Shown here piece by piece: positions 2,039-18,843 of a stretch of 64,000 nt of DNA. Both the position numbers and the translations under genes were made by a program. The DNA comes from Lutibacter citreus (GTDB lineage: Bacteria; Bacteroidota; Bacteroidia; Flavobacteriales; Flavobacteriaceae): positions 1 through 64,000 of the forward strand of contig NZ_QEIH01000010.1 of the NCBI RefSeq assembly GCF_003260195.1, read 5' to 3'. Each line of letters opens with the position of its first letter. The stretch's first letter is position 1. Under the pieces are notes generated by a model. The model ran no database searches. It was not told where the DNA came from and saw only the letters and a program-made list of their open reading frames with translations.

Positions 2039-2041
2039 AAT

Positions 2042-4318: not shown

Positions 4319-4496
4319 TGAATTGGGTATTTTCTTGATTATTAGATAATGGGTTACGTTGTTTAATTTTTAGTCAATAACTGTAAAAAGTGATACAAAA
4401 AAAAATACATCGTTTACTTACATGATTAAAAATCTTAATTACACCTCAAATTAGACTCTTAGCAACCTTCAATTATTGAAAGATTAGTTATTTCTT

Positions 4497-4535
4497 ACTA
4501 CTCAAAAACTCCTTAAAAAGGAGTTTTTGAGTAGT
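4497..4535. terminator. perfect bidirectional terminator hairpin
   Basis: An 18-bp perfect stem (4497-4514 pairing with 4518-4535) with a 3-nt AAA loop is followed by a T-rich run on both strands. It sits between the rightward restriction pair and the leftward gene ending at 4589 and can terminate both. The right arm (4511-4535) recurs unchanged at 7146-7170. The rest of 4319-4588 holds no gene I can support. Confidence 0.85.
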
Positions 4536-4561
4536 ATTTTTTAATTTTTATTTCTTTATGC

Positions 4562-4577
4562 AACGATTACCATTGTT
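4562..4577. repeat. cassette-boundary palindrome, copy A
   Basis: The sequence AACGATTACCATTGTT is one of three sites matching AACGAT-N4-ATTGTT. It lies 12 nt beyond the stop codon of the leftward lipoprotein gene. The preceding TTATGC is shared with copy C. Confidence 0.6.
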
Positions 4578-4588
4578 ACAAGCAGTTT

Positions 4589-5356: not shown

Positions 5357-5397
5357 AATTATTTTTTTGAATTTTTAATATGTATTGTTTTAAATTG

Positions 5398-5478
5398 TTT
5401 ACCATGAGTTTTTATATGATTTGTGCGACTGGAAATCAGAGAATCTTCGGAGGTAGCAAATTGTTAGCTGAATATTTG
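5398..5478. repeat. hairpin repeat H1 (diverged copy)
   Basis: About 80 bp resembling the closer pair at 7964-8042 and 15303-15381. Shared blocks include GATTTGTGCGACTG and a GCAAAT-TGTTAG segment that can fold back on GATTTG. It precedes (5' of) the leftward gene 4589-5356. Confidence 0.55.
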
Positions 5479-5542
5479 AAGTTTTTATAACCAACTCAAT
5501 AAAATAACCTCATCAAAAATAGAAATTTACCACGTAATTTTT

Positions 5543-5689
5543 TTACTTAGTAGCTCTGGATGATACCCAAAATAAGTAAAATGATAAGCCAATACATATA
5601 AAAGATATTTCAGGTTGATGTGCGAACCCTAGTATTCCCCCTAAGATAAATAAAATGACACCTAATATTCCTGCAAAATTTGATTCCAT
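5543..5689 (-). CDS. small membrane protein, 48 aa
   Basis: A 48-codon frame beginning MESNFAGILGVILFILGG and ending FYLFWVSSRATK is predominantly hydrophobic and can form two transmembrane helices (about residues 5-22 and 28-43) joined by a short polar turn (AHQPE). The ATG is preceded by an A-rich leader (AAAAAAAATGG context on the coding strand), normal for this phylum. I recognise no family. Its coding status rests on composition and placement in a gap within a row of leftward genes. Confidence 0.5.
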   Translation of the reverse strand: MESNFAGILGVILFILGGILGFAHQPEISFICIGLSFYLFWVSSRATK

Positions 5690-5715
5690 TTTTTTTAGTT
5701 TTTATTGTTTTTGGT

Positions 5716-5731
5716 AACGATTGTAATTGTT
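5716..5731. repeat. cassette-boundary palindrome, copy B
   Basis: AACGATTGTAATTGTT matches AACGAT-N4-ATTGTT and is followed by GTAA. It lies 54 nt beyond the stop codon of the leftward gene 5786-6007. Confidence 0.6.
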
Positions 5732-5785
5732 GTAAAAAGTAGAACTCATCCGAATAAGCACATTTTGCTTGAATTTAGATTTCAA

Positions 5786-6007
5786 CTACCAATTTTCCAT
5801 ATCGTTTTCATCCGCTTTTCGAATCAATAAATTTAAAAGATTTGATAAAATTTGACCATTTTTTCCATGAGCACTAACAATAGCTTCTTCTAAATCATTT
5901 CTATTTACTAAAAATCTTTCGTACATTTCTTGACTTCTATCTTCTGAATGTTCAACTTCATCTATCATAGTGTTAGTTCTTTTAATCAAATCATCAAATA
6001 ATCCCAT
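5786..6007 (-). CDS. hypothetical protein, 73 aa, coupled to EcsC-like gene
   Basis: A small acidic, probably helical soluble protein (MGLFDDLIKRTNTMIDEVEH at the start) with no signal peptide or membrane segment. Its start codon lies 1 nt after the stop of the upstream EcsC-like gene, so the two are almost certainly co-transcribed and translationally coupled, which suggests a functional pairing. I recognise no domain. Confidence 0.6.
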   Translation of the reverse strand: MGLFDDLIKRTNTMIDEVEHSEDRSQEMYERFLVNRNDLEEAIVSAHGKNGQILSNLLNLLIRKADENDMENW

Positions 6008-6008
6008 A

Positions 6009-6707
6009 TTATTTCTTATTTTTTAGTGTGTATTCTATAGATTCGTCAGATTCAAAATATTTTATAGCTGAACCTTTAAATTTTGTCATCGTGAAATAGT
6101 TAAATGTTCCTCCCACGGCTGCACCAACTCCCAATGGTATTAATCTACCTAAAGCAATTCCTCCTCTTTTTGCACCGTATTTTGTGAAAATAGTAGTTCC
6201 AACTCTTTGATTTATTTTCGCTAAAGTTTTACCGCTAACTTTTCTATTAAAAGTTGTTACTGCAACCTTTGTAGCAATTTTCTCTGTTGCTAATTTAGAT
6301 GCTTCAATAGCCCCGCACCATAATCCTAAAATTTTTACGAATTCCTGATTAAAATCAGAACGAATGTCTTTATCATTAATTAACGCAACACCGTAGCAAG
6401 TTGAAGCCATCCATCTCAACATTAAAATTAAATCGCCAGAAATTGTTCCAGTTTCTATTGCTATTTGAATACCAGTTCCAAGACCAGGGATGGTACTCGG
6501 TAAAGCACTTACAATTCCAATTGATGTATACTTATTTCTAATTCTATTTGTATAGATTTTTGAAAGCTCTTTTTTTGATTTATTTGGTTTTCCTTTTCTC
6601 AGTTCAGCTACGTCTTTTTCAACTGATTCGAAAGATGGTGACACAAAATTCACTACTTTCATAAAGTCAAAATCTTTGGTTATTTCTACTTCTTTGTTTT
6701 TTTCCAC
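6009..6707 (-). CDS. EcsC-like family protein
   Basis: The 232-aa product has the layout of EcsC-like proteins: a basic N-terminal region (KGKPNKSKKELSKIYTNRIR), then a Gly/Pro-rich segment ALPSTIPGLGTGIQIAIE (about 70-90), helical stretches and a Gly-rich hydrophobic segment near the C-terminus (GRLIPLGVGAAVGGTFNYF). EcsC-like proteins are membrane-associated and of unclear biochemical role. It heads a two-gene unit with the 73-aa gene 1 nt downstream. It is flanked 5' by a repeat-rich 520-bp spacer. Confidence 0.6.
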   Translation of the reverse strand: MEKNKEVEITKDFDFMKVVNFVSPSFESVEKDVAELRKGKPNKSKKELSKIYTNRIRNKYTSIGIVSALPSTIPGLGTGIQIAIETGTISGDLILMLRWMASTCYGVALINDKDIRSDFNQEFVKILGLWCGAIEASKLATEKIATKVAVTTFNRKVSGKTLAKINQRVGTTIFTKYGAKRGGIALGRLIPLGVGAAVGGTFNYFTMTKFKGSAIKYFESDESIEYTLKNKK

Positions 6708-7139
6708 GTTTTTTTTGTAAAAGATTTAATTAGTTAATGTGCAATATTTTTTTATCTACTTTTTGTAACGGTTATGTATAAGGGTATTGCGAATTTTTGT
6801 ACGAAGATTTTTCGTAAGAAAATCAGACGTAACAAAAGAGTACTAACCAGATTGTACTGACATATCCAATTCATAACTTTGTTGCTAACTTATAGGGAAC
6901 TTATGTTTATGTATTTTAGAATCATAAAAACTTACAATTGAAATTTATTAAAATTATTGAAGCAAAAATATATATCTAAAGTTATTATTAGATTTCACTA
7001 TTGAATTTGGCTTTTCTAGAAATTATTGTCAATGGCCGTTCTAGTATAAGAAAAGTAGGGCAGTTCAATATCCGCGAGGATTTCTGTAAGTTGGCTATTA
7101 CTAGCAATGAATTAATCTCTTAGTTACTTCTTAAAAATT

Positions 7140-7187
7140 AATAAACCTTAAAAAGGAGTTTTTGAGTAGTGTTTTTTTAGGTTTATT
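7140..7187. terminator. terminator-like hairpin sharing an arm with 4497-4535
   Basis: AATAAACCTTAAAAA (7140-7154) pairs with TTTTTAGGTTTATT ending at 7187, with one bulge. The loop and left arm contain 25 bp (7146-7170) identical to 4511-4535. It lies downstream of the leftward DUF2971 gene. Confidence 0.5.
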
Positions 7188-7196
7188 GACTTATGC

Positions 7197-7212
7197 AACG
7201 ATATCTATTGTT
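7197..7212. repeat. cassette-boundary palindrome, copy C
   Basis: AACGATATCTATTGTT matches AACGAT-N4-ATTGTT, is preceded by TTATGC as in copy A, and is followed by GTAAG. It lies 15 nt beyond the stop codon of the leftward DUF2971 gene. Confidence 0.6.
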
Positions 7213-7227
7213 GTAAGTAGTATTATA

Positions 7228-7929
7228 TTAAATTAAGGTTGCTTTTAATTTATATGTTTTTGGTATTTTCTCAATTTGATAAAATTTAATGTTTTTACTT
7301 TTAAGTGAATTTATTATTTCCTGTTTCTTATCGGAGCATATTCTAAGTCCAAAATAAATAGATTTAATGGCTAAAGGCGAGTAATTTATTTTACCTATCG
7401 TATTTGTTATTAATCTATATTCCTGTTCGTATTCCCATCTTTTTGACTTATTAAACCCCATTTTGTTTAATCTCTTAGAATTAGAACTGAAAAAATCTTT
7501 CCAATTGATTACTAATGGGGTTTTAGAATATGTGACGGAAGAATAATGTTCTATTTCCTTAATACTATTTAAAAGTATATTCAAGTCATATTCTATGCAG
7601 TACCCATTATGTTGATTTGCATAATGAGCCCAAAGTAATTCATCTATACTATTCTTTGATAATGAATACATTCCATTTCTATTATCAATTGACATTACTT
7701 TGTCTGTATTTTTATTTAAAAAATCAATATCTTTTTCTGAGTTTATCCCAAACCATCTAGCAATAAACTCAATTAACTTTATTACAGGTCGATTATCTAT
7801 TACAGTTTCAAAAACATCATTAAATTCTATTGGATTCGCAGACCAAAAGTTGTTTTCTAAAATTGAATTTATATCTCGCTCAAAAGTTTTGTCAAAAATC
7901 CCTCGATATTTATAAATGGTGTTTTTCAA
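7228..7929 (-). CDS. DUF2971 family protein
   Basis: A 233-aa protein with DUF2971 hallmarks: an N-terminal YKYRG followed by a segment on wrongly placed ENNFWSANPIEFNDVFE (about 27-43), then MYSLSKNSIDELLWAHYANQ (about 93-112) with the conserved W-HY and GYCIEYD, and near the end SIYFGLRI. The function of DUF2971 is not established; members are frequent in mobile and defence-associated regions. The only usable start is TTG at 7929, as an in-frame stop lies just upstream. It is bounded by palindrome C on the 3' side and hairpin repeat H2 on the 5' side. Confidence 0.75.
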   Translation of the reverse strand: MKNTIYKYRGIFDKTFERDINSILENNFWSANPIEFNDVFETVIDNRPVIKLIEFIARWFGINSEKDIDFLNKNTDKVMSIDNRNGMYSLSKNSIDELLWAHYANQHNGYCIEYDLNILLNSIKEIEHYSSVTYSKTPLVINWKDFFSSNSKRLNKMGFNKSKRWEYEQEYRLITNTIGKINYSPLAIKSIYFGLRICSDKKQEIINSLKSKNIKFYQIEKIPKTYKLKATLI

Positions 7930-7963
7930 ATAATTTATATTTTAATTGGATATCAAATTAACT

Positions 7964-8042
7964 ACAACGGTATTTTATAAGATTTGTACGACTGGAAAAT
8001 CAGAGATTTTTCTGCCGTTGCAAATCGTTAGTTGAATGTTTG
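7964..8042. repeat. hairpin repeat H2
   Basis: A 79-bp element about 89% identical to 15303-15381 by eye. The ends AACG and CGTT can pair, as can GATTTGT with GCAAATC, giving a long imperfect hairpin with a bulge, reminiscent of the structure of integron attC sites although the integron core consensus is not exactly met. Confidence 0.65.
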
Positions 8043-8124
8043 CCGCTTGTACTAGTTCAAATTTAAGCGTAAAATTGCAGTTTGTAACAAGCTTTTGCAA
8101 TCGCTAAATCAGGATTAATATACC

Positions 8125-8198
8125 ATGACACCTATAGAAGTACTTTAGTGAAAAATTAATCAATTTTTACTTGTTTTTTACCACAGTACTTTGTTGTA
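8125..8198. repeat. 74-bp repeat, copy 1
   Basis: Identical over 74 bp to 14427-14500. It contains AGTACT near both ends of an imperfect inverted repeat and ends in TTGTTGTA, which is also found beside palindromes B and C. It ends 10 nt before the stop codon position of the leftward gene 8209-9408. Confidence 0.8.
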
Positions 8199-8208
8199 GC
8201 CCGTTTTT

Positions 8209-9408
8209 TTATTCATACTTTTCTAATAAATTTTCTGTAATGTGAAACATATTATTGTTTCCCAAATCTTCAAATCTTAGATATAAATTCCCAGAATCTT
8301 TATTTATTGAAATAGTATTTATTTGATAAATTTCTATTGAAGTAACATCTTTAAAATATCTGTCCTTATTTATTAATTCATTAAAATGAGGTAATACATA
8401 CTTCAATAAATTATCTAAATCGTGATCGACTTTACTTGGTTTTTCATAAAAAAATTTTAAAGCTAGAGCGGGGTTTTTAGGTAGTAGTTTCCCATTTAGA
8501 ACTTTCCATTCTTTCAATTTTGTGTTAATCCTATCTTTAAAAAGCTTGCTTTCACCTTGAGAAACAGGAACGCTTCCGAAATTTATATTATATCGACCAT
8601 TTAGAGTTGTTACTCTTTCAATTTTAGTTAGGGTCTTAGAAAGATTAGAAAGAATTGAATTATTTTTCACCGTTTCTGGTTGATCGGTAATTAATGTTAG
8701 AATAGAACTAGCTGATGATTTAGAGTTTAATTTTAAAAACTGTTGACCTTTTTCCTCCTCAAATAATTGGTTTTGGAATTCGTCATAATCTATTTTCGTT
8801 CCGTCAATTTCAATTTTCAGACCTTCAATTTTAACAGGTTTGTAATAGTCTAAATCATTCAACCTTCTTTGACTTTCTTCATACTCATTATCCTCTGAGA
8901 ATGAATATATTTTTCTATTAGAAAATTTTCCAAATTCTAAATCCCTAGCAAATTCTAAATTAGAAATAAAATCTCTAAATGGTCTTATGGATATAGTAAG
9001 TTCCTGTTCCTCATTTTTATTTGATTTCCAATAATGGGCCGATAATGCTTTGATTTGAGAATCATCTTTTATTAATAAGTACTTTCGCCTAGTAGCTATT
9101 TCTTTTTGTGGTTTTTGAATTAAGTCAATATAATGTTTAAGTAAAGATTGAATAGCGGGCGAGTTACTTTGATTTATTTTAAAAGAAAATTCAATAGCAA
9201 CATTTGCTCTGAAACAATTTTTCTTTATACTTGTTAGTTCAGAAAGCACAAATTTTTGAAATTTAATGTTTTCTATAAGGCTCTTACTTCTTTTAGTCTG
9301 GTATTTCCCTACCTTATATGAAATGAAAATTGAGTTTTTCCCCATTTGATTCCGATACTGATACCTTCGACCTTCAAATGATTCTAGAAATTCATTTCGA
9401 TTACTCAT
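8209..9408 (-). CDS. putative RusA-like resolvase-fold protein (possibly duplicated domain)
   Basis: A 399-aa soluble protein that I can only tentatively classify. Near the C-terminus, residues 326-355 (KVDHDLDNLLKYVLPHF, then FKDV) resemble the acidic active-site region of RusA Holliday-junction resolvases (pattern PDxDNLxKxxLD, then an acidic pair). An N-terminal segment, SLLKHYIDLIQ followed by YLLIKDDSQIKALSAHYW, resembles the second half of the same motif with the first acidic pair lost. This suggests two RusA-like halves, one degenerate. The RusA match is by eye and weak. It stands alone between a 74-bp repeat (3' side) and an IS relic (5' side). Confidence 0.45.
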   Translation of the reverse strand: MSNRNEFLESFEGRRYQYRNQMGKNSIFISYKVGKYQTKRSKSLIENIKFQKFVLSELTSIKKNCFRANVAIEFSFKINQSNSPAIQSLLKHYIDLIQKPQKEIATRRKYLLIKDDSQIKALSAHYWKSNKNEEQELTISIRPFRDFISNLEFARDLEFGKFSNRKIYSFSEDNEYEESQRRLNDLDYYKPVKIEGLKIEIDGTKIDYDEFQNQLFEEEKGQQFLKLNSKSSASSILTLITDQPETVKNNSILSNLSKTLTKIERVTTLNGRYNINFGSVPVSQGESKLFKDRINTKLKEWKVLNGKLLPKNPALALKFFYEKPSKVDHDLDNLLKYVLPHFNELINKDRYFKDVTSIEIYQINTISINKDSGNLYLRFEDLGNNNMFHITENLLEKYE

Positions 9409-9418
9409 ATTATTTTTC

Positions 9419-9845
9419 TGTCTTGTCCTGAAATATGGCTACAGGTTAAAATTGATTTTACGCTGTTAATTTATATACCATATTTGGTGTTTTAAAGTCT
9501 AAAGATAAGTGTAATCTTATTTCGTTGTATAATTTAATTGCATTTTTTGCTGCTCTTATAGCGTGCGCCACGTTCATAAAGGTTTGATCAAGATAAAACA
9601 CATCTTTTAATATTTCATTTACACGTTTTGCCATTGCATTTTCATAACAATGATTTTCTTCAGTCATACAAATGTTAATCTATTTTCTTTAAAGAATATT
9701 GGTGTATAAATTGCTGTAATATTGTATTCCTCTAGCTCAATGATGTATGAATCCTTTAATGTTTAAAATTATGTAGCCTTTATTCAGGACGAGTCAAATT
9801 GTAATAAGTTGTCTAATTTTAATCAACCTATTTCAGGAAAGTACA
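9419..9845 (-). mobile_element. internally deleted IS3-family relic with terminal inverted repeats
   Basis: About 427 bp flanked by imperfect inverted ends: TGTCTTGTCCTGAAATA at 9419-9435 and, on the other strand, TGTACTTTCCTGAAATA from 9845 inward. Between them only the C-terminal end of a transposase orfB survives, so most of a normal IS3 (about 1.2-1.5 kb) has been lost. Its ends differ from the IS at the left edge of the window, so it is a different element. Confidence 0.65.
9458..9667 (-). pseudogene. IS3 transposase orfB, C-terminal remnant
   Basis: Sixty-nine codons match the final part of IS3-type integrases: EENHCYENAMAKRVNEILKD and the downstream region FYLDQTF, then YNEIRLHLSLDFKTPNMVY. 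The glutamate of the DDE triad falls in the ENAMAKRVNEILK segment. The upstream catalytic part is absent. Confidence 0.85.
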
Positions 9846-9863
9846 TTGTTTGGGCTTGCTTTT

Positions 9864-10565
9864 TTATTCAATTACTGTCGTTAATATTCCTTTTTCGTCA
9901 ATGATTTGTTTCTTGTTTTCATATGTTTCAACGAGAGAGAATCCATTATAAAATGGTTCGATCATTAAATATCTTTCTTTATATAGTTCATCTCCATTTT
10001 TGTTAATATGAAACCACCCGTTTTTGTCTTTAGCTGTTGCGTATTTTTTGTGAAAAACACCCAAATCGAGAAATATCTTACTATTTATTAATTGACCTTT
10101 TTCATTGATGTGTCTAAAACCATTTTTAGTCTTTACGCAAGCAATTCCATCTTTATAATCTCCTGCATATAAATAATTTTCTGTGTAGATTCTTTTTCCT
10201 GATAAATTGATGTGAAAATAGTTGTTTTTTATATCACGAACAGAACAAATCTTTTCTTGATAGTTTCCTATCCAAGAATAAGAAGTTGAATATACTTTTT
10301 CTCCTTTTGTATTAAGATGAACCCATTTATTATTTAAAACAACACTTGCTCTTTCGCAATAATATCCAAAAGTTCTATCATAGCGTTCTTTGTAAAGCTC
10401 TTTTCCTTGTATATCGATATGATACCAACCTGATTCATCATAAACAGGAGCAAAACCCTCTGAATGAAACTTTAATACTTCTAAAAATTTCTTGTTAAAA
10501 ACGGGCTCTTCATTGTAAGTGAAATGTGTTCCATCTTTTGATATTTTGATTTCAGTATATTTCAT
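9864..10565 (-). CDS. WG-repeat (KWG) protein, operon partner of sugar/radical-SAM enzymes
   Basis: A 233-aa protein built of roughly eight repeats of the WG type, with units such as GWYHIDIQGKELYKERYDR, KWVHLNTKGEKVYSTSYSW and GWFHINKNGDELYKERYLM. Each unit ends in a conserved Lys/Glu-Tyr (ELYKERY, KVYSTSY, RIYTENY). There is no signal peptide. It begins directly at the stop codon of the upstream glycosyltransferase/phosphatase gene, so the three leftward genes 9864-14233 form one operon. WG repeats are generally taken as binding scaffolds; in this setting the protein could be a scaffold or a modified substrate, which is inference. Confidence 0.75.
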   Translation of the reverse strand: MKYTEIKISKDGTHFTYNEEPVFNKKFLEVLKFHSEGFAPVYDESGWYHIDIQGKELYKERYDRTFGYYCERASVVLNNKWVHLNTKGEKVYSTSYSWIGNYQEKICSVRDIKNNYFHINLSGKRIYTENYLYAGDYKDGIACVKTKNGFRHINEKGQLINSKIFLDLGVFHKKYATAKDKNGWFHINKNGDELYKERYLMIEPFYNGFSLVETYENKKQIIDEKGILTTVIE

Positions 10566-11963
10566 TTAGCAAACTATTTTTGATTTTAAGAACTCTATTT
10601 GTTCATTAGATATTTCGCAAGATTTAAAGTATTCAATTATTCCTCCTTTTTCATAAACTGCATCAAGTAGTATTTGAATATAATTTTCTTTAGTATCCAT
10701 TTTACTTGCTAAATAGTCTAATAAAATAGTTTCTTTATTCGCTCCAGATAACAAATGAAATAAGGTAATTATTATGCCTGTTCTATCTTTTCCTGCGTGA
10801 CAATGAATGTTAATTGCGCCAATTGAGTTAATAACTGCTTCAATTACTAATTTTATTGATGCTTTACATTCATTTGAGAAAAAATGGTAAGCAATTTCTG
10901 TATTTGTTCCTGTGTTATGTATATTCTGAAATTCAACACTTTGCTTCCAAGGGTCAAAAGGAGCGTGAATAATTTTATATTTATCTTGCTGTTTTTTGTT
11001 GTAAAAAATCTCCTTTAATTCTCTATCTGCTCGTAAATCAACTATTGTTTCAATATTTTTAGATTGTAAATGACTTTCTAAACTCGATTCATTTTTATAT
11101 AAACACAAAGCTGAACTACGATAAATAATTCCTTTTTTTAATTTTGGATTGTATTTTGATACATCCCTAAAATTTTTTATTTTTTCTATATTTTTATGAT
11201 AATGATTCCAAACATCATTTTTATAGTACTTGTCCCAATGTGGATAATGACAATAATTGCAACCACAAAAATGACCTACACAATACTCTGTTATAATATT
11301 TTCTTTTTTTTTATTTATGAATTCAATAGTGTTAGACTGGAAAACATCACTTTTTGGTAAAATAAATAGTTCTCTATTTGAATTAGTAAATTCATTAACA
11401 ATAAATCCTTGTTCAGCTATAAATCTTTCTGATAATAAGTCTACTTCAGGAAGTGTAACACTAAATTGAGGTGGATAACCAATTATTCCAGCATTTAATT
11501 CATATTCTTTTGGGATTGATTGGTCGTAGTTCCCATAATTTCGTCCATTCCAGTCAGAGTTCAATAATAATCCATCCGATTTGAGCCATTTAATAATAGC
11601 TTTAGGTACTTTCCAAAAGACAATGTCAGAATCCAAGACTAATTCATATTTTTGTGAATTGATACGTAAAGGGATATACTTCCAAAATGAATTTTTCATT
11701 TCATTACCCCATTCGTTTTTCCCCTCTAATAAAGTTGCTTTATTTAGAGTTATTCGTTTTAATTTTTCTAAAGAATTAGAATTTGATAAGGAATTGTATA
11801 CTATATGCATTTCTGCATTTGGAAATAATTTTAAAGCAAATAGCAAACTACATTCAAGCATATCAAATGCTTGTAAGGAAGTTGGTCTTTCTTTTGTTTC
11901 TCCGAAAGTCCAGCGAATAACTAAGTTTGAAAAATCTATCATATAGGTTTTCTCATATTGCAA
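10566..11963 (-). CDS. fusion: glycosyltransferase-like domain + tyrosine phosphatase (Y_phosphatase3 type)
   Basis: This 465-aa protein joins two unrelated activities. The N-terminal ~250 residues look like a nucleotide-sugar glycosyltransferase fold, with the DXD-like motif VLDSDIVFW (D111, D113) and later a Cys/His-rich stretch (HFCGCNYCHYPHWDKYY). The C-terminal ~190 residues are a dual-specificity/tyrosine phosphatase: IIYRSSAL, then TIVDLRADRE, then the signature HCHAGKDRTG with catalytic Cys388. The cysteine and arginine are intact. The start overlaps the end of the upstream GT4/radical-SAM gene by 25 nt, and the WG-repeat gene follows without a gap, indicating translational coupling. 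The glycosyltransferase assignment is by pattern; the phosphatase is clear. Confidence 0.7.
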   Translation of the reverse strand: MQYEKTYMIDFSNLVIRWTFGETKERPTSLQAFDMLECSLLFALKLFPNAEMHIVYNSLSNSNSLEKLKRITLNKATLLEGKNEWGNEMKNSFWKYIPLRINSQKYELVLDSDIVFWKVPKAIIKWLKSDGLLLNSDWNGRNYGNYDQSIPKEYELNAGIIGYPPQFSVTLPEVDLLSERFIAEQGFIVNEFTNSNRELFILPKSDVFQSNTIEFINKKKENIITEYCVGHFCGCNYCHYPHWDKYYKNDVWNHYHKNIEKIKNFRDVSKYNPKLKKGIIYRSSALCLYKNESSLESHLQSKNIETIVDLRADRELKEIFYNKKQQDKYKIIHAPFDPWKQSVEFQNIHNTGTNTEIAYHFFSNECKASIKLVIEAVINSIGAINIHCHAGKDRTGIIITLFHLLSGANKETILLDYLASKMDTKENYIQILLDAVYEKGGIIEYFKSCEISNEQIEFLKSKIVC

Positions 11964-14233
11964 GTTTTACAAAGTGCATTCGATTTATAATTTTTTACAA
12001 GATTTGTATAAATAGGACTTTTTATAACCTCTTTAATTGTTTTTGTTTCAATGTTTCCGAAATCACCCAATGATTTTCGTAAATTGTCTGGAGCACAACA
12101 AGGAGAAATAACGCCTGTTGGAGGTATCCAAAGTTCTTTTTCAAGAAAAGGACATTCATATTCTATAGGAATAGCATTAATTGCTTTTTCATTAATTGGT
12201 ATAATGTTTTCTAAAATAATTTGCTCTCCATTTGGTTTTTTAAATTCTTTTTGAACTTTAAGAGCTTGTCTAACATACTTATTCCATTGTTGAACACTTT
12301 CATTACTATCTTTCATTGATAGCTTTTTTATTTCTTCAAAATGAGCCCAAAGCTGATGTCCTTTTACTCTATCAACCCCTAAAGAAATTGCTAATTTTAT
12401 AATATCAGCTAATTCGTGCATATTATTCTGCATAAAAGTAAGCTGAAATGTTACTCGACAAAAATAACCTGTTTCCTTTTGATATTCGTTTCTATATTTT
12501 ATAAACTCTTTTACATTTGAGATTGATTTATTGAAATCAATCCCTAACATTATTTTTTTTGTTGTTTGTTCGGTTGCACCATTCCAACTTATTTTTACAT
12601 CTGTAGTATTTGGGACTATTAATTTAGCCCATTCTGTTACAGTTTTCTTGGGAAATGTTCCGTTTGTTGTTAAATTTATTTTGATGTTTTTTTGTTGTGC
12701 TAATTCAAATATTTGGTCAAACTTTTTGTAAAGTAAAGGTTCATCCATAGTTGAAGGAATAATTTCTGTAACACCCAATTTTTCGGCTTGTTCAAATATA
12801 TCTTCAACCGTTTCAAATTTCATTCTTCTGCGTTTTACACCTGTTTTCTGGTACAGATTTGGAATAAAATCACTGTATGGACTGTGTTCTTCACACATTA
12901 TACATTTCAAGTTACAATCTTCTGGGTTTGTATCAATTGTAATTCTCCAAAGTTTCGGTTTAATGAAACTACTATACATTGTTTCTAATTCTTTACAATG
13001 TTCTTGAATGTTAGGAACGCTACCGTCTTTAGAAAAAAGATAACCTTTTTCTCCAAATTGTTTTAACAAATTGGGGTTTGCGATAGCAAACCTCATTTGT
13101 TTAATTAAGGATTTGGTATTTCTATGCTCAAATAAAAGTCCATTAACTTTATGCTCAACATATTCTTTCATTCCTCCAATATTTGCTGTTATTACAGGTA
13201 CTTTACAAGATTGAGATTCGTGAATTACAAGAGGGGAGTTTTCTGTCCAAATAGATGGAACTACAATACAATCTACTTTTGCTAAAACTTCATTTGCTAA
13301 GTTTTTATTGATGTATTCGCCAACAAATTCAATTTTGTTTTTAGATTTCTGAGCAAGTTGTTTTAATGCTTTCGTACTTTGTCCGTTTACTCGACCATAA
13401 ATTCGGAGTGTTGCAGTTTCTTCTATTTCATTAAACGCCTCTATTAATTGATTAATTCCTTTTGCTGGAATATGAGTTCCAATATAACCAAAAGTAAAAT
13501 TTGATGTTTCTTTTGTTTTTTCAGTTGGAGTTAAATATTCAGTTGGAAAACCATAATCAAGATAAGTAATTTTGTCTTTTGGAACAGAAAATTCATATAC
13601 AAACCTATTTAATAAGTATTTTGATGGAGCAATAAATAAATCAACTTTATTAATTATTGATTTTGTCTCAATCATTCTATTGTGAACCCATTTACTCCAA
13701 CTTGCAATATCTTGATTTTCGTCAAATGAATTTCCACTAAAATATACTTTGTAACAACTTGTGGCGCATTTGCTATCTTCTTGTTTAGAACATAATTGAT
13801 TATTGTTTTCAAGTCCAATACTACGAGTTAAAAATTGACCTCTTGGACACATTAACCAGAAATCGTGTAGAGTAAATATTATTGGTATTCTTTGTTTATT
13901 GAGTTCATCAATTAAACCTGTAGATAAGTGGTTTAAATGTCCTATGTGAGCAACATCAGGATTTATTGATTTTATTAAATTGGCAAAATTCTCATCAATT
14001 TTCTTGTGTTTATATCCATCTTTTCCTTGTGGATTATTTACAAAATAGAAATCGAGATTTTGATGTTCGTTTTTGTGTCTTATTTCGAAATCTTTACTAT
14101 AAGGATTTTCTTCTCTTGTGAAAACTGAAATTTTATGAGTTTTTGATAATTCGTTACAAATTGATTGGCTATATACTTCTGAACCTGCATTGTAACTTGT
14201 AGGATATCCGTGAATAATTTTTAGTATGTGCAT
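11939..14233 (-). CDS. fusion: GT4 glycosyltransferase + radical SAM/SPASM enzyme
   Basis: A 764-aa protein. Residues 1 to about 400 form a GT-B fold of family GT4: GYPTSYNAGSEVYS, HDFWLMCPRGQF, GYIGTHIPAKGINQLIEAF and the C-terminal PSIWTENSPLVIHESQSCKVPV region with the EX7E-like glutamate pair. Residues about 430-764 are a radical SAM domain with the cluster motif C440-x3-C444-x2-C447 (CNLKCIMC), followed by a C-terminal SPASM-type cluster region (SPCCAPD, then ALCKTCNMRKP). It heads the three-gene operon ending in the WG-repeat protein. A radical SAM enzyme of this kind modifies peptides, proteins or sugars; combined with glycosyl transfer it points to a modified glycoconjugate or peptide, but the product cannot be read from sequence. 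Confidence 0.8.
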   Translation of the reverse strand: MHILKIIHGYPTSYNAGSEVYSQSICNELSKTHKISVFTREENPYSKDFEIRHKNEHQNLDFYFVNNPQGKDGYKHKKIDENFANLIKSINPDVAHIGHLNHLSTGLIDELNKQRIPIIFTLHDFWLMCPRGQFLTRSIGLENNNQLCSKQEDSKCATSCYKVYFSGNSFDENQDIASWSKWVHNRMIETKSIINKVDLFIAPSKYLLNRFVYEFSVPKDKITYLDYGFPTEYLTPTEKTKETSNFTFGYIGTHIPAKGINQLIEAFNEIEETATLRIYGRVNGQSTKALKQLAQKSKNKIEFVGEYINKNLANEVLAKVDCIVVPSIWTENSPLVIHESQSCKVPVITANIGGMKEYVEHKVNGLLFEHRNTKSLIKQMRFAIANPNLLKQFGEKGYLFSKDGSVPNIQEHCKELETMYSSFIKPKLWRITIDTNPEDCNLKCIMCEEHSPYSDFIPNLYQKTGVKRRRMKFETVEDIFEQAEKLGVTEIIPSTMDEPLLYKKFDQIFELAQQKNIKINLTTNGTFPKKTVTEWAKLIVPNTTDVKISWNGATEQTTKKIMLGIDFNKSISNVKEFIKYRNEYQKETGYFCRVTFQLTFMQNNMHELADIIKLAISLGVDRVKGHQLWAHFEEIKKLSMKDSNESVQQWNKYVRQALKVQKEFKKPNGEQIILENIIPINEKAINAIPIEYECPFLEKELWIPPTGVISPCCAPDNLRKSLGDFGNIETKTIKEVIKSPIYTNLVKNYKSNALCKTCNMRKPI

Positions 14234-14426
14234 ATTTTGGGTAGTTCAAAATTTTTTCTAATATATTTTGATTGGTTTTCGGTGTTTTTTTTATAAGTCA
14301 TAACGGTTTTGAATATGAAAAGTTGTGAATTTTTAAGTACTACCTTTTCGATTTATAACTGACCTTTGTTTTATTATTATCTTTCGTTTAAGGCCTAAGT
14401 CTTAAAGCCTCTATTTTTTATATACG
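14234..14426. promoter_or_regulatory. upstream region of the GT/radical-SAM operon
   Basis: This gap lies 5' of the three-gene leftward operon and must hold its promoter. It contains a TAACGGTT element (about 14299) similar to that at 6766. No coding frame is visible. Confidence 0.4.
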
Positions 14427-14500
14427 ATGACACCTATAGAAGTACTTTAGTGAAAAATTAATCAATTTTTACTTGTTTTTTACCACAGTACTTTGTTGTA
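14427..14500. repeat. 74-bp repeat, copy 2
   Basis: Identical over 74 bp to 8125-8198. As there, it ends exactly 10 nt before the stop codon position of a leftward gene (14511-14855), although the two genes are unrelated. Confidence 0.8.
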
Positions 14501-14510
14501 AACTGTGCTT

Positions 14511-14855
14511 TTATTTTTCCGCCATTAATTTCGTGTAAAATTTTTCTTTTTTCGCATTATTTGTTGCTTTTTCATATAAATCAAAAAGTCCGAATAAATA
14601 AAGTCTTTCGTTCATTGTCATTCCTCCAATTCCGTTAATTGCAGAGTCTCTAAATTCCGACCATATTCCGTAAACTTTTTCAAAATCCGCTTTTTTGTCA
14701 ATCCACGCATTTCCAAGATACCGTTCAACATTTTCTTTTAATTCAAGAGCATTTTGTTCGTTAGTTTTCCATTTTTGGATAAATTCCGCTAATTCTTGAA
14801 CATTTTTTTCAGATGATATTTTTCTGATATTTTTTGTCAATTCATCAATATTCAT
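14511..14855 (-). CDS. hypothetical protein, 114 aa
   Basis: A small soluble, helix-rich protein (start MNIDELTKNIRKISSEKN; later IQKWKTNEQNALELKENVER and MTMNERLYLFGLFDLYEKA). No known domain, signal peptide or membrane segment is recognised. It sits between a 74-bp repeat and a GCATTGTTTACAA repeat as a one-gene module, as expected for a mobile gene cassette. Confidence 0.55.
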   Translation of the reverse strand: MNIDELTKNIRKISSEKNVQELAEFIQKWKTNEQNALELKENVERYLGNAWIDKKADFEKVYGIWSEFRDSAINGIGGMTMNERLYLFGLFDLYEKATNNAKKEKFYTKLMAEK

Positions 14856-14876
14856 TTCCGCAAGAGTGGTTTTTCA

Positions 14877-14889
14877 GCATTGTTTACAA
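14877..14889. repeat. 13-bp direct repeat, left copy
   Basis: GCATTGTTTACAA occurs here and again at 15294-15306, delimiting the gene 14896-15246. Confidence 0.6.
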
Positions 14890-14895
14890 TTGTGC

Positions 14896-15246
14896 TTATA
14901 AATCAGATACTTTTCTTTTTAACCAATTCATAAAATCCTCTCTATTATATTCTTTCCATTCATTTGTCAGAAGATATTCAGTTTCTCGGTTTTCAATCGG
15001 TTTTGCATAATATCTCGGATTTCCATTTATCAATCCGTTTTCTTTCAGAGATATTTTTTTGTCCACTTTTTTTAGAATAGGGAAGATTACGTTAAAAGTA
15101 AATTTAGAGTAATCTTTTTTCAGTAAATTTTGAATTTCATTTTCAGAAATTAAATCCTTTTCCAAAATTATAGATATTGTATTCTTAACTAATTTTCCAA
15201 TTTTCAATTTGTCAAGTTCTTTTTTTTCGCTCTCTGATATTTCCAT
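14896..15246 (-). CDS. hypothetical protein, 116 aa, in a repeat-bounded module
   Basis: A charged helical protein (MEISESEKKELDKLKIGKLV at the start) whose body contains a winged-helix-like succession: ISENEIQNLLKKDYSKFTF, then RYYAKPIENRETEYLLTNEW. This pattern, a short helical DNA-binding-like region followed by a YLLTNEW strand, recalls small proteins of unknown function near restriction genes, but I cannot name a family. It is bounded by 13-bp direct repeats at 14877-14889 and 15294-15306. Confidence 0.55.
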   Translation of the reverse strand: MEISESEKKELDKLKIGKLVKNTISIILEKDLISENEIQNLLKKDYSKFTFNVIFPILKKVDKKISLKENGLINGNPRYYAKPIENRETEYLLTNEWKEYNREDFMNWLKRKVSDL

Positions 15247-15293
15247 AATTCCGATTTTCTATCTATGATTTTTCAAATGCGTACTGCTTTTCG

Positions 15294-15306
15294 GCATTGT
15301 TTACAA
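15294..15306. repeat. 13-bp direct repeat, right copy
   Basis: Second copy of GCATTGTTTACAA, overlapping the first bases of hairpin repeat H3. Confidence 0.6.
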
Positions 15307-15381
15307 CGGTATTTTATAAGATTTGTGCGACTGAGAAATCGGAGATTTTTCGGTGGTAGCAAATCGTTTGTTGAATGTTTG
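15303..15381. repeat. hairpin repeat H3
   Basis: About 89% identical over 79 bp to 7964-8042. It can fold through AACG/CGTT, GATTTGT/GCAAATC and the inner GAGAAATC/GATTTTTC pairing. It lies between the 116-aa and 200-aa leftward genes. Confidence 0.65.
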
Positions 15382-15426
15382 TCGGTTCGTTATTTAGTTT
15401 AGATGTAAGCATAAATTTTATGAGGT

Positions 15427-15441
15427 GTTAGCTAAAGTAAT
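15427..15441. repeat. 15-bp inverted repeat flanking a gene, left arm
   Basis: GTTAGCTAAAGTAAT; its reverse complement matches 16045-16059 at 14 of 15 positions. The pair brackets the gene 15444-16046. Confidence 0.6.
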
Positions 15442-15443
15442 TA

Positions 15444-16046
15444 TCAGTTTTGTTGTCCTACTGCATAAACTAAATCCAAAAAGTATCGTCTATAAACCTC
15501 TTTGTTAAACTTTCTATTCGGTATTTTATCAATCGATTTATTCAAAATTTCTAATCCCTTTTTATTGAATCCTCCATCTGCCTCATACTTGTCTAATATT
15601 ACGCAAAACTCATATTGCCATCCTTTTTTCTCTTTTGACAATTGATTATATCTGTATTCTGTGTTAGCAAAACATCCTTTATTCGAAAATGTCATAAAAA
15701 TCATTGAAGTATCAAATCTCATAAATTCTGAAAACTCAAATATTTTTTTTGAGGTTATCTTTTTATCAAAAGATTTTTGCAATAAATCTTTATATCCTTT
15801 TTTGGTTATTTCGTTAAGAATTTTCTCATCTAATAAAAAGTTTTCAAATAGTGAATAGATATTTTTTACAGAATCAATTTTACTCTCTGGAATTGGGTAA
15901 AATGAATTATTAATACTTTCTGATAATTCTAAATCCTTGCATAATTGAAATTTCTCATCCCAAACTTCACTTTCAATGTTTCGTGTCGTAGAGCAGGAAG
16001 TAATTAAAATCGTTGAAATTATCAATATGTAAAAATATTTCGTCAT
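15444..16046 (-). CDS. putative lipoprotein, 200 aa
   Basis: The N-terminus MTKYFYILIISTILITSCST is a lipoprotein signal peptide with Cys at residue 18. The remainder is helical and charged with two further cysteines (LQKSFDKK region, then SNKGCFAN and YEFCVIL). I recognise no family. The gene fits closely between two 15-bp inverted repeats, one overlapping the start codon, which is unusual and suggests that gene and repeats move together. Confidence 0.6.
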   Translation of the reverse strand: MTKYFYILIISTILITSCSTTRNIESEVWDEKFQLCKDLELSESINNSFYPIPESKIDSVKNIYSLFENFLLDEKILNEITKKGYKDLLQKSFDKKITSKKIFEFSEFMRFDTSMIFMTFSNKGCFANTEYRYNQLSKEKKGWQYEFCVILDKYEADGGFNKKGLEILNKSIDKIPNRKFNKEVYRRYFLDLVYAVGQQN

Positions 16047-16059
16047 TATTTTAGCTAAC
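16045..16059. repeat. 15-bp inverted repeat flanking a gene, right arm
   Basis: ATTATTTTAGCTAAC, inverted counterpart of 15427-15441 (one mismatch). Beyond it up to 16328 I see no gene. Confidence 0.6.
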
Positions 16060-16328
16060 TCGTTATATAATCATTCAAAGTGTTTTTATACCCGTTAAAT
16101 TTACGGGATAAAAATACTTTGTATGATTTTTTAAATTTTTACTTTTTGTGTGTGAATAATGATACTTATTTAATATCCACATACAAATATAAATATTCAA
16201 TTGGTTTATGGCTGTGATATTTATCAGATTCTTTCTTTTATGATACTTTAGGGATAGTGTATTTCTCTGTTTCTGATAATTATTTATAGCAACGTAAATA
16301 TGTGAAATTTAATCCTATCAATAGGATT

Positions 16329-16810
16329 TTAAGGTATGAAAACGGAAGGATTTACAAAATTTGGATCCAATATATATACTACAGAACGAGATGTCATATC
16401 TTAATGGGGGAGTGAGCCGTCATTTCTAAGTGGCATGTTTTTAATTAAGAAGTATCTTTTGTCTATTAAATGTTTTAGATCATTAATATCTTGTTTTGTA
16501 GCAGGTATGTTATCTGGTGTTTCATTTATTTTTTTCACTCCATATTTAAGGACCTCTGTGAGTGCATTACCTATAATATTGTTTGCCACTCCAGCAGAAC
16601 TGACGTTATCAATTTTTGTAGGTTCTATTGAATTTTTATGTTCTGATTTCTTAAAATGTTTTTTTTGGATTTGAGCTTAATTTTCTTTTTTTTATTTTTA
16701 TGATAATTGTGTTTTTGACCACATTTTCTACTACAAAACTTTTGTGTGCCTCTTTTAGTTGGTTCAAATTCTTTTACACAAAGTAAGCATGTGTAATTTC
16801 CAGTTTTCAT
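16329..16810 (-). pseudogene. decayed zinc-ribbon-type gene of Bacteroidota mobile regions
   Basis: The coding strand opens at 16810 with MKTGNYTCLLCVKEFEPTKR and a CxxC...CxxxC metal-binding pattern (CLLC, then FCSRKCGQ). The frame stops at 16625, but a +/-1 shift in a run of eight A (about 16658-16665) continues into a frame containing GVANNIIGNALTEVLKYG, PATKQDINDLKHLIDKRY and FLIKNMPLRNDGSLPH. A second break, a TAA at 16401, is followed in frame by DMTSRSVVYI up to 16331. From memory, intact relatives have all of these segments in one protein, ending in an FDMxxxxVVY-like motif. I therefore read this as one gene broken by a frameshift and a nonsense mutation rather than two small genes. 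Confidence 0.55.
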
Positions 16811-17211
16811 TTTTTTTAATTTTAATGTCTGAATAGTGTCGAATCCGACACCAAATTTCCTTTTTTTGTGGATACCGTTTTTTCTCTGAAATATTTAATA
16901 GAATCCTCTTCTAGATTAGAGAAGGACAGAAGACAGATGTCTTTAAAATTAAAACCTAAAGTTGATTAACAATATTTAATAACTAAAAATATAGAAGTAT
17001 AGTAGTTTTTTAATAAGTATGTGGTTGTTATTAGATTCATTTCATTTAGAGAGGTTAGTTCTCATTATTTAATACAAATAGTGAAGAAAGTATACTTATA
17101 AGTACATAGAATAAACTAATACAGACAGTAACTAATAGTATTAAAAATATATTTGTTAACGAAAGTTAGTTTAGAATACTAACAGTTTAAATTTTAAAAA
17201 TAATTAATAGA
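16811..17211. promoter_or_regulatory. left boundary and promoter region of the PUL
   Basis: Four hundred bases without a credible gene separate the leftward accessory genes from the rightward PUL. It must hold the promoter for the first sulfatase pair. The sequence is extremely AT-rich; I could not define a promoter with confidence. Confidence 0.4.
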
Positions 17212-18771
17212 ATGAACTTAACAAAAAGAACATTTAGAAGTAGTATAACAGTTATTTTACTAAGCTTTATTGTTTTTGTTTCCTGTAAAACTAAAGAGAA
17301 AACAGAAAGTGAAGTGTTAGAAAAATCATCTAAAAAAACAAATATAGTATTCATTTTAGTGGATGATATGGGTTATGCAGATGTTGGTTTTAATGGTTCA
17401 AAATATTTTGAAACACCAAATTTAGATGCTTTGGCAAAGGAAAGTTTGGTGCTAGATAATGCCTATATGTATCCTACTTGTTCACCATCAAGAACAGCAA
17501 TTTTTACAGGTCAACAATCGTTTAGAACAGGAGTTTATGGAGTGCCAGTTTTAGAAAAAGGAACGGCTCAAGAAAATATTTTTTCTCGTTGGACTGTTGG
17601 AAAACAATTTCCTATTTATTCAGAACCGCTTGCAAAAAACGGATACAAATCTATACATATTGGAAAATGGCATATTGTAGGGCCATACCCAAAGGAAGAA
17701 TTAAATAGCACTTGGCCAATAGATCATAAATTAGCGCAACCAGATCCAGGTGATTTTAGCTGGGTAAAAGAGCATAAAACTCCTGAAATTCAGCAATATT
17801 ATCCTGAAGGTCGTGGGTTTATTAAAAATGTTGGAGGAACATTTAGAGGTGATCCTGCGTTAGAAGCTGGTGGTTATCATAGTGAAAGAGGAGGATATTG
17901 GGCTCCGTTTGAAAATCCATTTATTGAACAAAAACCAACAGATAATTGGTTAACAGATAGATTGACAGATGAAGCAATTGAATTTATGGATATACATAAA
18001 GACGAGCCTTTTTTAATAAATTTAGATTACTATGCTGTGCATAAGCCTATTCGCTCTAGAAGCGATGAGTTGTATGATAAATACTTCAAAAAGCAAGATA
18101 CCGTTACTGGTCAAGGAGTTTCAAATAATCCTAAGAAAAAGAAAGAGTATACTGCTTATGCAACTATGGTTGAATCTGTAGATGATAATATTCAAAGAAT
18201 TGTAAAGTATTTAGATGAAAACAACCTAAGAGAAAACACAATGATAATTGTAACTTCAGATAATGGTTACAATGGTGGTCAAAGTAGAAATAATTTATTG
18301 AGAGGAGCCAAAAGAGATGTTTATGAAGGAGGAATTAAAGTTCCTATGTTAATAAATTGGCCAGGTAAAGTAGAACCAAGAAGGAGTAATGTTGGTGTTT
18401 CTTGTATGGATATTTTTCCAACAATGATGGATGTTTCGGGTACTAGCTATAATGGAGTTTTAGATGGGAATTCTTTAACAGATATTTTTAAAAATGATAC
18501 AGATTCTTTTAAAGATAGACCTTTGTTTTGGCATTTGGCAAGTGTAATATCACATGGAACATGTTCTGTAATTAGAAAAAATAATTATAAGCTTATTCAG
18601 TTTTTAGCAGATGGAAAATTAGAATTGTATGATTTAGAAAAAGACCCAAAAGAAAGTACAAATTTAGCAGACCAAAAGAAAGAATTAACAGCTGAGTTAT
18701 TAAAAGAATTAGTAGAGTGGCGCAGCGTAAATAAAGTTCCATTACCTCCAAACTCTATATTGGATATCTAA
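17212..18771 (+). CDS. Cys-type S1 sulfatase, lipoprotein
   Basis: A 519-aa type I sulfatase, exported as a lipoprotein (VFVSCKTKE, Cys at about residue 25). Metal-binding LVDDMGYADVG lies at about 50-60, and the formylglycine motif CSPSR has catalytic Cys90. IGKWHI (about 156-161) and a C-terminal TSDNGYNGGQ (about 347-356) complete the alkaline-phosphatase-like site. Sulfatases of this type hydrolyse sulfate esters from sugars after the Cys is converted to formylglycine. It is the first PUL gene and the next sulfatase follows after about 70 nt, so the two probably share a transcript. The S1 subfamily, and hence which sulfate is removed, cannot be read by eye. Confidence 0.9.
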   Translation: MNLTKRTFRSSITVILLSFIVFVSCKTKEKTESEVLEKSSKKTNIVFILVDDMGYADVGFNGSKYFETPNLDALAKESLVLDNAYMYPTCSPSRTAIFTGQQSFRTGVYGVPVLEKGTAQENIFSRWTVGKQFPIYSEPLAKNGYKSIHIGKWHIVGPYPKEELNSTWPIDHKLAQPDPGDFSWVKEHKTPEIQQYYPEGRGFIKNVGGTFRGDPALEAGGYHSERGGYWAPFENPFIEQKPTDNWLTDRLTDEAIEFMDIHKDEPFLINLDYYAVHKPIRSRSDELYDKYFKKQDTVTGQGVSNNPKKKKEYTAYATMVESVDDNIQRIVKYLDENNLRENTMIIVTSDNGYNGGQSRNNLLRGAKRDVYEGGIKVPMLINWPGKVEPRRSNVGVSCMDIFPTMMDVSGTSYNGVLDGNSLTDIFKNDTDSFKDRPLFWHLASVISHGTCSVIRKNNYKLIQFLADGKLELYDLEKDPKESTNLADQKKELTAELLKELVEWRSVNKVPLPPNSILDI

Positions 18772-18843
18772 GTTAAAAACTACTAAGATTAAATGTTGTT
18801 TAGCTAGTTTTAAAAAATGATTATAACATATAAAATAAAAAAC

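Follow-up and report, generated by a model that had tools for sequence, protein, structure and literature searches.

A Lutibacter citreus operon as a reduced copy of a mobile, probably biosynthetic gene module built on a GT4-radical SAM enzyme and a WG propeller

Here we show that a fusion enzyme with GT4 and radical SAM/SPASM halves (GT4-rSAM) and a His-type WG propeller form the constant, co-diverging core of a module whose other parts are interchangeable and which is found on phages, plasmids and chromosomes and in repeat-flanked islands. What we studied in Lutibacter citreus is a smaller version of this horizontally transferred, probably biosynthetic module. It lies in the window, i.e. the whole stretch of 64,000 nucleotides analysed (contig NZ_QEIH01000010.1, positions 1 to 64,000), with the following features:

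11939..14233, minus strand: GT4 + radical SAM/SPASM fusion enzyme, 764 aa, module core; homologue of Wolbachia WD0613 (UC3)
10566..11942, minus strand: glycosyltransferase (GT)-like domain (DSD) + HCHAGKDRTG tyrosine phosphatase (PTP), 458 aa (465 aa if the start is TTG 11963)
9864..10565, minus strand: module-type WG protein, predicted beta-propeller, 233 aa, module core; homologue of the N-terminal half of WD0614 (UC4)
14417..14515, no strand: upstream copy of a 99-nt direct repeat flanking the operon region, 93% identical to 8115-8213
8115..8213, no strand: downstream counterpart of this 99-nt repeat, at the end of a 399-aa gene (8209-9408)
9831..9870, no strand: weak match to part of the 99-nt repeat, in degenerate form (family D4, 73% over 40 nt), at the WG gene end, possible cassette boundary

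The original prediction had described a three-gene operon made of two domain fusions and a WG-repeat gene. Indeed, the three frames (11939-14233, 10566-11963 and 9864-10565, all on the minus strand) are open, intact and, by an ORF check within the window, tightly coupled, and Pfam returned GT4, Radical_SAM, SPASM, Y_phosphatase3 and WG_beta_rep. The gene junctions, given as a 25-nt overlap and an abutment, need a partial correction. The start of the WG gene directly abuts the stop of the second gene (TAAATG), but the 25-nt overlap of the first and second genes holds only for a TTG start at 11963. A start at the ATG at 11942 would share just 4 nt (ATGA) with the end of the upstream gene, and the second protein is therefore probably 458 aa long.

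The genes had also been proposed to act together, and for the core pair this is borne out. Among 395 Bacteroidia genomes, that of L. citreus included, a module-type WG protein was found in 17 and a GT4-rSAM in 16: both occur in 15 of the 18 genomes having either, two have the WG protein only, one the enzyme only, and 377 neither (Fisher p = 4e-24, with genomes taken as independent and families f77 and f104 represented three times each). Genome G530 has the WG gene without the enzyme. The WG threshold, 1e-70, was chosen after a gap had been seen between 4e-76 and 8e-26. A phylum sample searched with a single protein (P0001) gave matches in 2/395 genomes and the class sample searched with a profile in 16/395, the own genome being counted in both; as samples and queries differ, no overall frequency is claimed. 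Furthermore, the divergences of the two proteins are correlated over 21 loci (Mantel r = 0.88, p = 1e-4). Different families and phyla have the core pair, arranged in much the same order, so that the operon is not a chance arrangement. That the genes are never found together elsewhere is thus excluded for this pair, and for the pair with a tyrosine phosphatase (8 other loci). The 21-locus table omits L044 (contig ending in the O-methyltransferase), L045 (no GT4-rSAM), L054 (generic WG), L076 (contig ending at the rSAM start) and two further Arsenophonus plasmids.

The three genes as a unit, as originally proposed, fared differently: the GT-PTP fusion is exclusive to the window (1/21 loci), and the GT-like domain occurs in 3/21, in L046 and L006 as separate genes adjoining NTase-phosphatase fusions. 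The parts that are swapped around the core are a tyrosine or histidine phosphatase, an O-methyltransferase or carbamoyltransferase, and a nucleotidyltransferase. No module has more than one phosphatase, which is of the histidine type in seven loci, of the tyrosine type in nine (never both) and absent from five. Ten loci have an O-methyltransferase, fused to the WG domain in two of them, two have a carbamoyltransferase and nine have neither; positions 1-20000 of the window gave no O-methyltransferase match. A phage contig (L017) and two genome loci (L052 and L053) have, of the known parts, just GT4-rSAM and WG. The core is also carried by phage WO, a prophage contig (L016) and Arsenophonus plasmids.

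The domains of the enzyme all score above the curated Pfam cut-offs (GT4 PF00534, 2.7e-28; Radical_SAM PF04055, 1.6e-14; SPASM PF13186, 8.7e-9). The predicted cluster C440-x3-C444-x2-C447 was found in the window protein, and both the radical SAM C-x3-C-x2-C and the GT4 E-x7-E are kept in 21/21 loci. Among PHROGs, phrog_21308 is a strong match (E 9.2e-185). The enzyme differs from the glycosyltransferase of the TIGR04157/CFB-group radical SAM peptide systems (54 bits vs a cut-off of 400), which likewise pair a GT4 with a radical SAM maturase in Bacteroidota. We also considered that it might be a viperin and rejected this: its match to pVip in PADLOC is at the superfamily level only (E 5.3e-8 vs 4.6e-90 for the true pVip in L051). 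Apart from such weak matches (pVip with a generic rSAM, E 5e-8), none of the window proteins counts as a defence protein in PADLOC.

The WG protein (233 aa, ending after the repeats) matches WG_beta_rep PF14903 above the curated cut-off (3.4e-8). Its predicted structure (pLDDT 92.9) is a compact propeller, and on the match of this model we assign it a propeller fold: it aligns with eIF2A (8dys, VIA) with Z 10.3 and rmsd 3.9 over 233 residues, and the best Foldseek matches (TMq mostly 0.5-0.6) are BamB and designed repeat proteins, which we take to be of the propeller type. It shares its repeat family with generic WG-repeat proteins, but in module WG proteins five repeats share a His at an equivalent position, and there are blade-specific invariants: W98, N101, Q103, C107, H172, K173, E203 and N207 are invariant in 21/21. 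With a strict pattern, 3-5 His-type repeats were counted in 21/21 module WG proteins and 0 in 5 generic ones, and the label of generic WG protein was rejected for the window copy.

In the second protein, the predicted tyrosine phosphatase was confirmed: HCHAGKDRTG fits the C-x5-R signature, the motif is kept in relatives, and Y_phosphatase3 PF13350 scores 103.2 bits against a cut-off of 22.2 (2.9e-29). The N-terminal part is a putative glycosyltransferase. It carries a DSD motif and is one of 2/3 GT-like sequences that do, the third having DND; Pfam, NCBIfam and PHROGs gave no match to it, and PADLOC a weak one (E 0.0011), with a type I specificity subunit. An AlphaFold model from a two-row alignment has a mean pLDDT of 33.9. 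A profile search gave only a chance hit in the PDB (E 1.7), and no relatives were found in the viral scan. A search of 100 genomes for the second protein returned five matches, one from L. citreus itself and four to the phosphatase part only.

We had supposed that no described pathway has this gene set. However, the pair of GT4-rSAM/SPASM and WG (with an O-methyltransferase) has been described in Wolbachia and Rickettsia (accessible text of PMC4701759 and PMC9203015). It belongs to the Undecim cluster of phage WO (UC3 = WD0613, UC4 = WD0614), which has rickettsial plasmid relatives. The window enzyme is 46.7% identical to that of WO over 100% of the query, the WG domain that follows is 46.2% identical, and in both cases the core is borne as mobile-element cargo. 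Yet WO has 11 genes, with WG fused to O-methyltransferase, and its fetched 32 kb gave no phosphatase match, whereas in the window the GT-PTP gene separates the core enzyme from the UC4-type WG. The eleven-gene set UC1-UC11 does not surround the operon: no UC1, UC2 or UC5-UC11 gene lies beside it, and the neighbouring ORFs have other or no families. Undecim genes are called highly expressed in Wolbachia in the available part of PMC9203015, and WD0614-0616 are below average in that of PMC4701759.

As predicted, the window copy lies in a repeat-flanked, cassette-like region, with direct repeats of 99 nt and 86 nt. No such repeat flanks nine further loci that were tested on both sides, and L040 has a 34-nt one only. 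The repeats flanking L050, L052 and L053 resemble coding duplications and were therefore not used as cassette evidence. We also scanned the flanks of 13 loci for signs of a defence island, using 90 of the 98 ORFs computed there (8 frames that overlapped or were doubtful were omitted; the window, L015, L016 and L046 were excluded). Among the PADLOC matches listed (25 of 52 families), Lmu, DarT/DarG, AbiLi, a type I methylase and a viperin were each hit by a single protein; scattered as they are among 90 proteins, they are suggestive only, and the idea was set aside.

A divergent RtcR/PspF-like activator lies upstream in 12/18 usable module loci. This count includes L076 and omits L006, with just 451 nt upstream, as well as three loci from outside the Bacteroidota (L017, WO and Arsenophonus); L016 lies on a viral contig with no host assigned. 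The activator is absent beside the window copy and five more usable loci (L015, L038, L040, L052 and L053), and 1/12 activator loci (L046) has a promoter that fits the sigma-54 consensus. The CARF part of the activator was found in 9/395 genomes: five times beside the module, once beside a viperin alone, twice beside neither (G522 and G585), and once at a contig start. In G573 and G641, a viperin (PADLOC pVip, E 7.5e-80 and 4.6e-90) and the GT4 gene share one apparent operon. The genome search of L. citreus gave no match to the CARF part; three matches were confined to the AAA part (best E 6.8e-28), and viperin was matched once, weakly (E 6e-10). Relatives of the module resemble prokaryotic viperin operons in the CARF-AAA activator family, in a radical SAM key enzyme and in a similar small upstream gene (G530), but the module enzyme carries SPASM and GT4 and is no viperin, and neither activator nor viperin lies beside the window copy. 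In the published literature searched we found neither RtcR/PspF-like activators upstream of the module, in a CARF form that also occurs beside viperin genes, nor a viperin and GT4 in one apparent operon.

The viperins and activators beside relatives lend support to the role in defence or antagonism first suggested for the operon. Since relatives often lie beside a stress-type switch, and sometimes viperins, the module may serve chemical defence against phages. The reading that we favour, at somewhat less than even confidence, is that it is an inducible biosynthetic module making a modified glycosidic small molecule, probably with an antiviral or antagonistic action. GT4 would transfer a sugar and the radical SAM half would modify the glycoside, the phosphatase would remove phosphate from a phosphorylated intermediate, and the WG propeller, as a subunit and not the product, would hold substrate or product through its blade-specific invariants. 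With less certainty, in most of the mapped Bacteroidota-type relatives the activator, of the type also found beside viperin genes, would turn the module on and the small molecule would be antiviral, so that the module would work like a viperin operon without being one. As neither activator nor methyltransferase is present in the window copy, its product is probably simpler and its control a different one. A bolder version, which we consider unlikely, is a second radical-SAM chemical immunity: a module triggered by infection through the RtcR/PspF-like activator, in which GT4-rSAM, with the His-type WG propeller holding the substrate, would make a modified glyco-metabolite or nucleotide glycoside that stops phages from replicating, and would in some genomes follow viperin in a chain, acting on its ddh-nucleotides, and which phages, plasmids and cassette arrays would have spread to insect endosymbionts.

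We judge it equally improbable that the product is, as suggested for related endosymbiont genes, a secreted aminoglycoside-like or other glycosidic antibiotic against competing bacteria, with the phosphatase removing a self-protecting phosphate last. Glycoside natural products are typically tailored by enzymes such as the O-methyltransferase and carbamoyltransferase of the module and, in WO or Arsenophonus, an epimerase, a PhyH dioxygenase and PLP enzymes, and WO also has an ABC transporter; UC5/UC6 were read as antibiotic production and export (accessible part of PMC9203015). R. buchneri has AGAB synthesis genes, which may or may not be the WD0612-0618 homologues (available text of PMC9111745); the same text, citing another paper, reports no antibacterial activity for its antibiotic-type clusters. 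Moreover, no exporter was found inside the mapped Bacteroidota operons, and antagonism leaves the viperins and RtcR/PspF-like activators unexplained.

The view, taken from the original prediction, that WG is the substrate, glycosylated or cross-linked by GT4-rSAM into a modified protein, is a less probable alternative again. SPASM enzymes often act on peptides, the three loci with only GT4-rSAM and WG of the known parts would suit it, and many WG residues, among them C107 and several Tyr, are invariant. It is weakened by the fusion of WG to an enzyme domain, O-methyltransferase, in WO and Arsenophonus, by the compact propeller of the predicted model, and by the higher level of WD0613 (RAL 10) than of WD0614 (RAL 4.5) in one Wolbachia proteome (accessible text of PMC4701759). 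Least probable is a modification of surface glycans (lysogenic conversion or exopolysaccharide) altering receptors or host interaction: the GT4 half of WD0613 was named ExpE7-like, after an exopolysaccharide enzyme type (available part of PMC4701759), WO has epimerase, GlmU-like and UDP-glucose dehydrogenase genes nearby and the core is phage cargo, but no flippase, polymerase or initiating transferase was found inside the mapped Bacteroidota operons, a propeller and a phosphatase without visible export parts fit poorly, and the two-gene version is hard to reconcile with a glycan pathway.

In conclusion, the Undecim core pair also exists as a compact module of free-living bacteria, with phosphatases, tailoring enzymes and viperin-type regulation. 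A question that is intractable in endosymbionts can thus be tested with two to five genes in bacteria that can be cultured. If its product is antiviral, the module would represent a new class of immunity based on small molecules, in which WG propellers would have a chemical role.

The three open reading frames of the original prediction are present and intact in the window, arranged in tandem on its minus strand:

11939-14233, minus strand: enzyme with GT4, radical SAM and SPASM domains
10566-11942, minus strand: GT-like domain fused to a phosphatase, the terminal Y_phosphatase3 domain carrying HCHAGKDRTG
9864-10565, minus strand: WG-repeat protein

For the second gene, ATG 11942 is a more probable start than TTG 11963 and gives an ATGA overlap with the first gene; the third starts directly after TAA.

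The enzyme and the WG protein form a constant core pair whose members co-diverge and whose catalytic motifs are conserved. When 395 Bacteroidia genomes, the window's own included, were searched with a WG profile (E <= 1e-70) and a GT4-radical SAM profile (E <= 1e-50), WG was found in 17, the enzyme in 16 and both in 15 (Fisher p = 4e-24, assuming independent genomes, although these belong to fewer families). WG occurred without the enzyme in two genomes: the G522 contig stops inside the methyltransferase gene adjoining WG, and the profile search of G530 found no GT4-radical SAM enzyme. The enzyme lacked WG in G573 only, where the contig stops just inside the radical SAM part. Gene maps of 17 fetched loci place the pair within a single cluster in 13; its members are about 4 kb apart in L051, L044 is cut at a contig end, L045 has WG alone and L054 a generic WG. 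We also compared 21 loci, from Bacteroidota genomes, Wolbachia phage WO, Arsenophonus, two viral contigs and a 10 kb MAG contig labelled Melioribacter (possibly misbinned). From one pair of loci to the next, the divergence of the enzyme tracks that of WG (r = 0.88), and the GT4 E-x7-E and radical SAM C-x3-C-x2-C motifs are conserved in 21/21, the enzyme being fused in 13 and split in 8.

The WG model is confident (pLDDT 92.9, pTM 0.81) and the predicted fold is propeller-like. With the repeats aligned on each other, a His stands five residues before the repeat glycine in five repeats of all 21 proteins; by strict pattern, module WG proteins have 3-5 such repeats and five generic WG proteins have 0. 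The invariants 10-16 residues after the glycine differ by repeat (W98/N101/Q103; Y133/D136; H172/K173; E203/Y206/N207). Since these invariants are position-specific in a repeat protein, they suggest one shared putative binding site, which points to a subunit or putative ligand-holding protein rather than a passive scaffold.

Around this pair, phosphatase and tailoring enzymes are interchangeable and the carriers are mobile. No locus (0/21) holds both phosphatase types.

Phosphatase type in the 21 loci
Histidine type (7/21): L015, L038, L040, L042, L043, L047, L049
Tyrosine type (9/21): window, L006, L016, L039, L041, L046, L048, L050, L051
None (5/21): L017, L052, L053, WO, Arsenophonus

In 6/9 (L006, L039, L041, L046, L050, L051) a nucleotidyltransferase-like domain forms one protein with the tyrosine phosphatase; Pfam Polbeta falls under the cut-off in both scanned copies, L006 and L046. 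An O-methyltransferase is a separate gene in 8/21 and WG-fused in 2/21, a carbamoyltransferase occurs in 2/21 (L048, L051), and 9/21 have neither. Two-gene versions are found in L017 (a phage contig), L052 and L053. The L016 module, on an IMG/VR contig, has five genes at 6500-13930 (GT4, radical SAM, phosphatase, O-methyltransferase, WG); we take the gene after it, on the opposite strand, to be integrase-like. The GT-like domain is present in 3/21, as a separate gene in L046 and L006. The co-conservation check proposed for the three-gene set holds for the core pair, together in 15 genomes; among the 21 loci, the GT-like/phosphatase fusion is confined to the window. It looks like the loss of a nucleotidyltransferase between the two domains, plus methyltransferase loss.

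In relatives, the module is linked to an activator and to viperin. A divergent sigma-54-activator-like AAA+ gene lies upstream of the operon in 12/18 usable loci, at most about 1 kb away; those of L039 and L046 are cut at contig ends. PADLOC names the family RtcR/PspF CARF_AAA_HTH, and the N-terminal CARF part, present in some copies only, was found in 9/395 genomes when searched alone.

Activator, CARF part and small genes
Activator present: L016, L039, L041, L042, L043, L046, L047, L048, L049, L050, L051, L076
Activator absent: window, L015, L038, L040, L052, L053
CARF beside module (5/9): G573, G589, G609, G641, G662
CARF beside viperin alone (1/9): G689
CARF beside neither within 12-18 kb (2/9): G522, G585
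CARF at contig start (1/9): G530
Small gene at module start (8 loci): L039, L041, L042, L043, L047, L049, L050, L051

A pVip-class viperin precedes GT4 in one apparent operon in G573 (E 7.5e-80) and G641 (E 4.6e-90). The small genes (about 100-123 aa, three sequence types) had no PADLOC match; a homologue of one type is coupled to viperin in G530 (L077 747-1082). HicA or RelE genes adjoin pVip according to PMC10865869. RtcR-like CARF-AAA proteins unlinked to rtc often adjoin restriction systems, with sigma-54-dependent control predicted, according to passages of PMC4012209.

The core pair is already known as WD0613 and WD0614 (UC3 and UC4) of the WO Undecim cluster. The claim that no pathway had been described therefore needs correcting, though the pair has no assigned function. 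Passages of PMC9203015 call UC3 a glycosyltransferase-radical SAM fusion, the functions given there being predictions. Those of PMC4701759 describe WD0613 as GT1 (ExpE7-like) + radical SAM + SPASM and WD0614, citing Gillespie 2012, as an unusual KWG repeat domain-O-methyltransferase fusion; they also name Desulfovibrio, Haliangium, Capnocytophaga and Saprospira as potentially syntenic. The same pair is on three Arsenophonus plasmids; in the one analysed, the enzyme is split into two overlapping ORFs and WG forms a fusion with an O-methyltransferase. As a side observation, PMC4267127 ties pathogenic potential to a block on a Brachyspira plasmid that encodes a radical SAM protein, a group 1 glycosyltransferase and epimerases. 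Neither the free-living form of the module and the swapping of its parts, nor the subfamily of His-type WG proteins, nor the viperin/RtcR link turned up in the literature searched; among the matches listed, where subscription literature is thinly covered, no paper tied the module to viperin or RtcR.

The window operon is flanked by 99-nt repeat copies (8115-8213, 14417-14515; 93%) and 86-nt copies (7963-8048, 15302-15387; 87%), and L015 by its own 125-nt repeats (86%). In window 4500-15400, direct repeats between the genes (84-99 nt; D1, D2, D3) and those of a 38-nt family (D5) coincide with gene ends or lie close to them, an arrangement that resembles a gene-cassette array, with no integrase visible. 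Searches found no activator match in the window, none to viperin over its first 20 kb and no CARF match in its genome, where the full activator matched generic AAA parts only and viperin gave one weak match. Other features nearby are:

101-4318, plus strand: MrcB_N/DUF4357 AAA-like protein, then DUF2357/PDDEXK_7 nuclease; the two are together McrBC-like and lie close to the module
6009-6707 and 7228-7929, minus strand: matches to PADLOC candidate families PDC-S29 and PDC-S31 (DUF2971)
9458-9667, minus strand: transposase-like remnant, 69 aa, downstream of the WG gene, presumably IS3 family
17212-62650: long series of sulfatase-like genes, accompanied by glycoside-hydrolase-like and SusC/SusD-like ones, which we take to be a polysaccharide utilisation locus acting on a sulfated glycan

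In L050 the module lies behind a gene read as DXP synthase (649-3111; one flanking protein matches this enzyme), and an apparent duplicate of its 3' end (10411-10539; 129 nt, 89%) lies beyond the module, which looks like the trace of an island insertion at this site.

Mechanistically, the GT4 domain would transfer a sugar and the radical SAM part would modify the glycoside; dephosphorylation and tailoring would be further steps, with WG as the putative ligand-holding subunit. The weakest steps are product identity and, for the window copy, regulation; the product may be diffusible, and antiviral or antagonistic.
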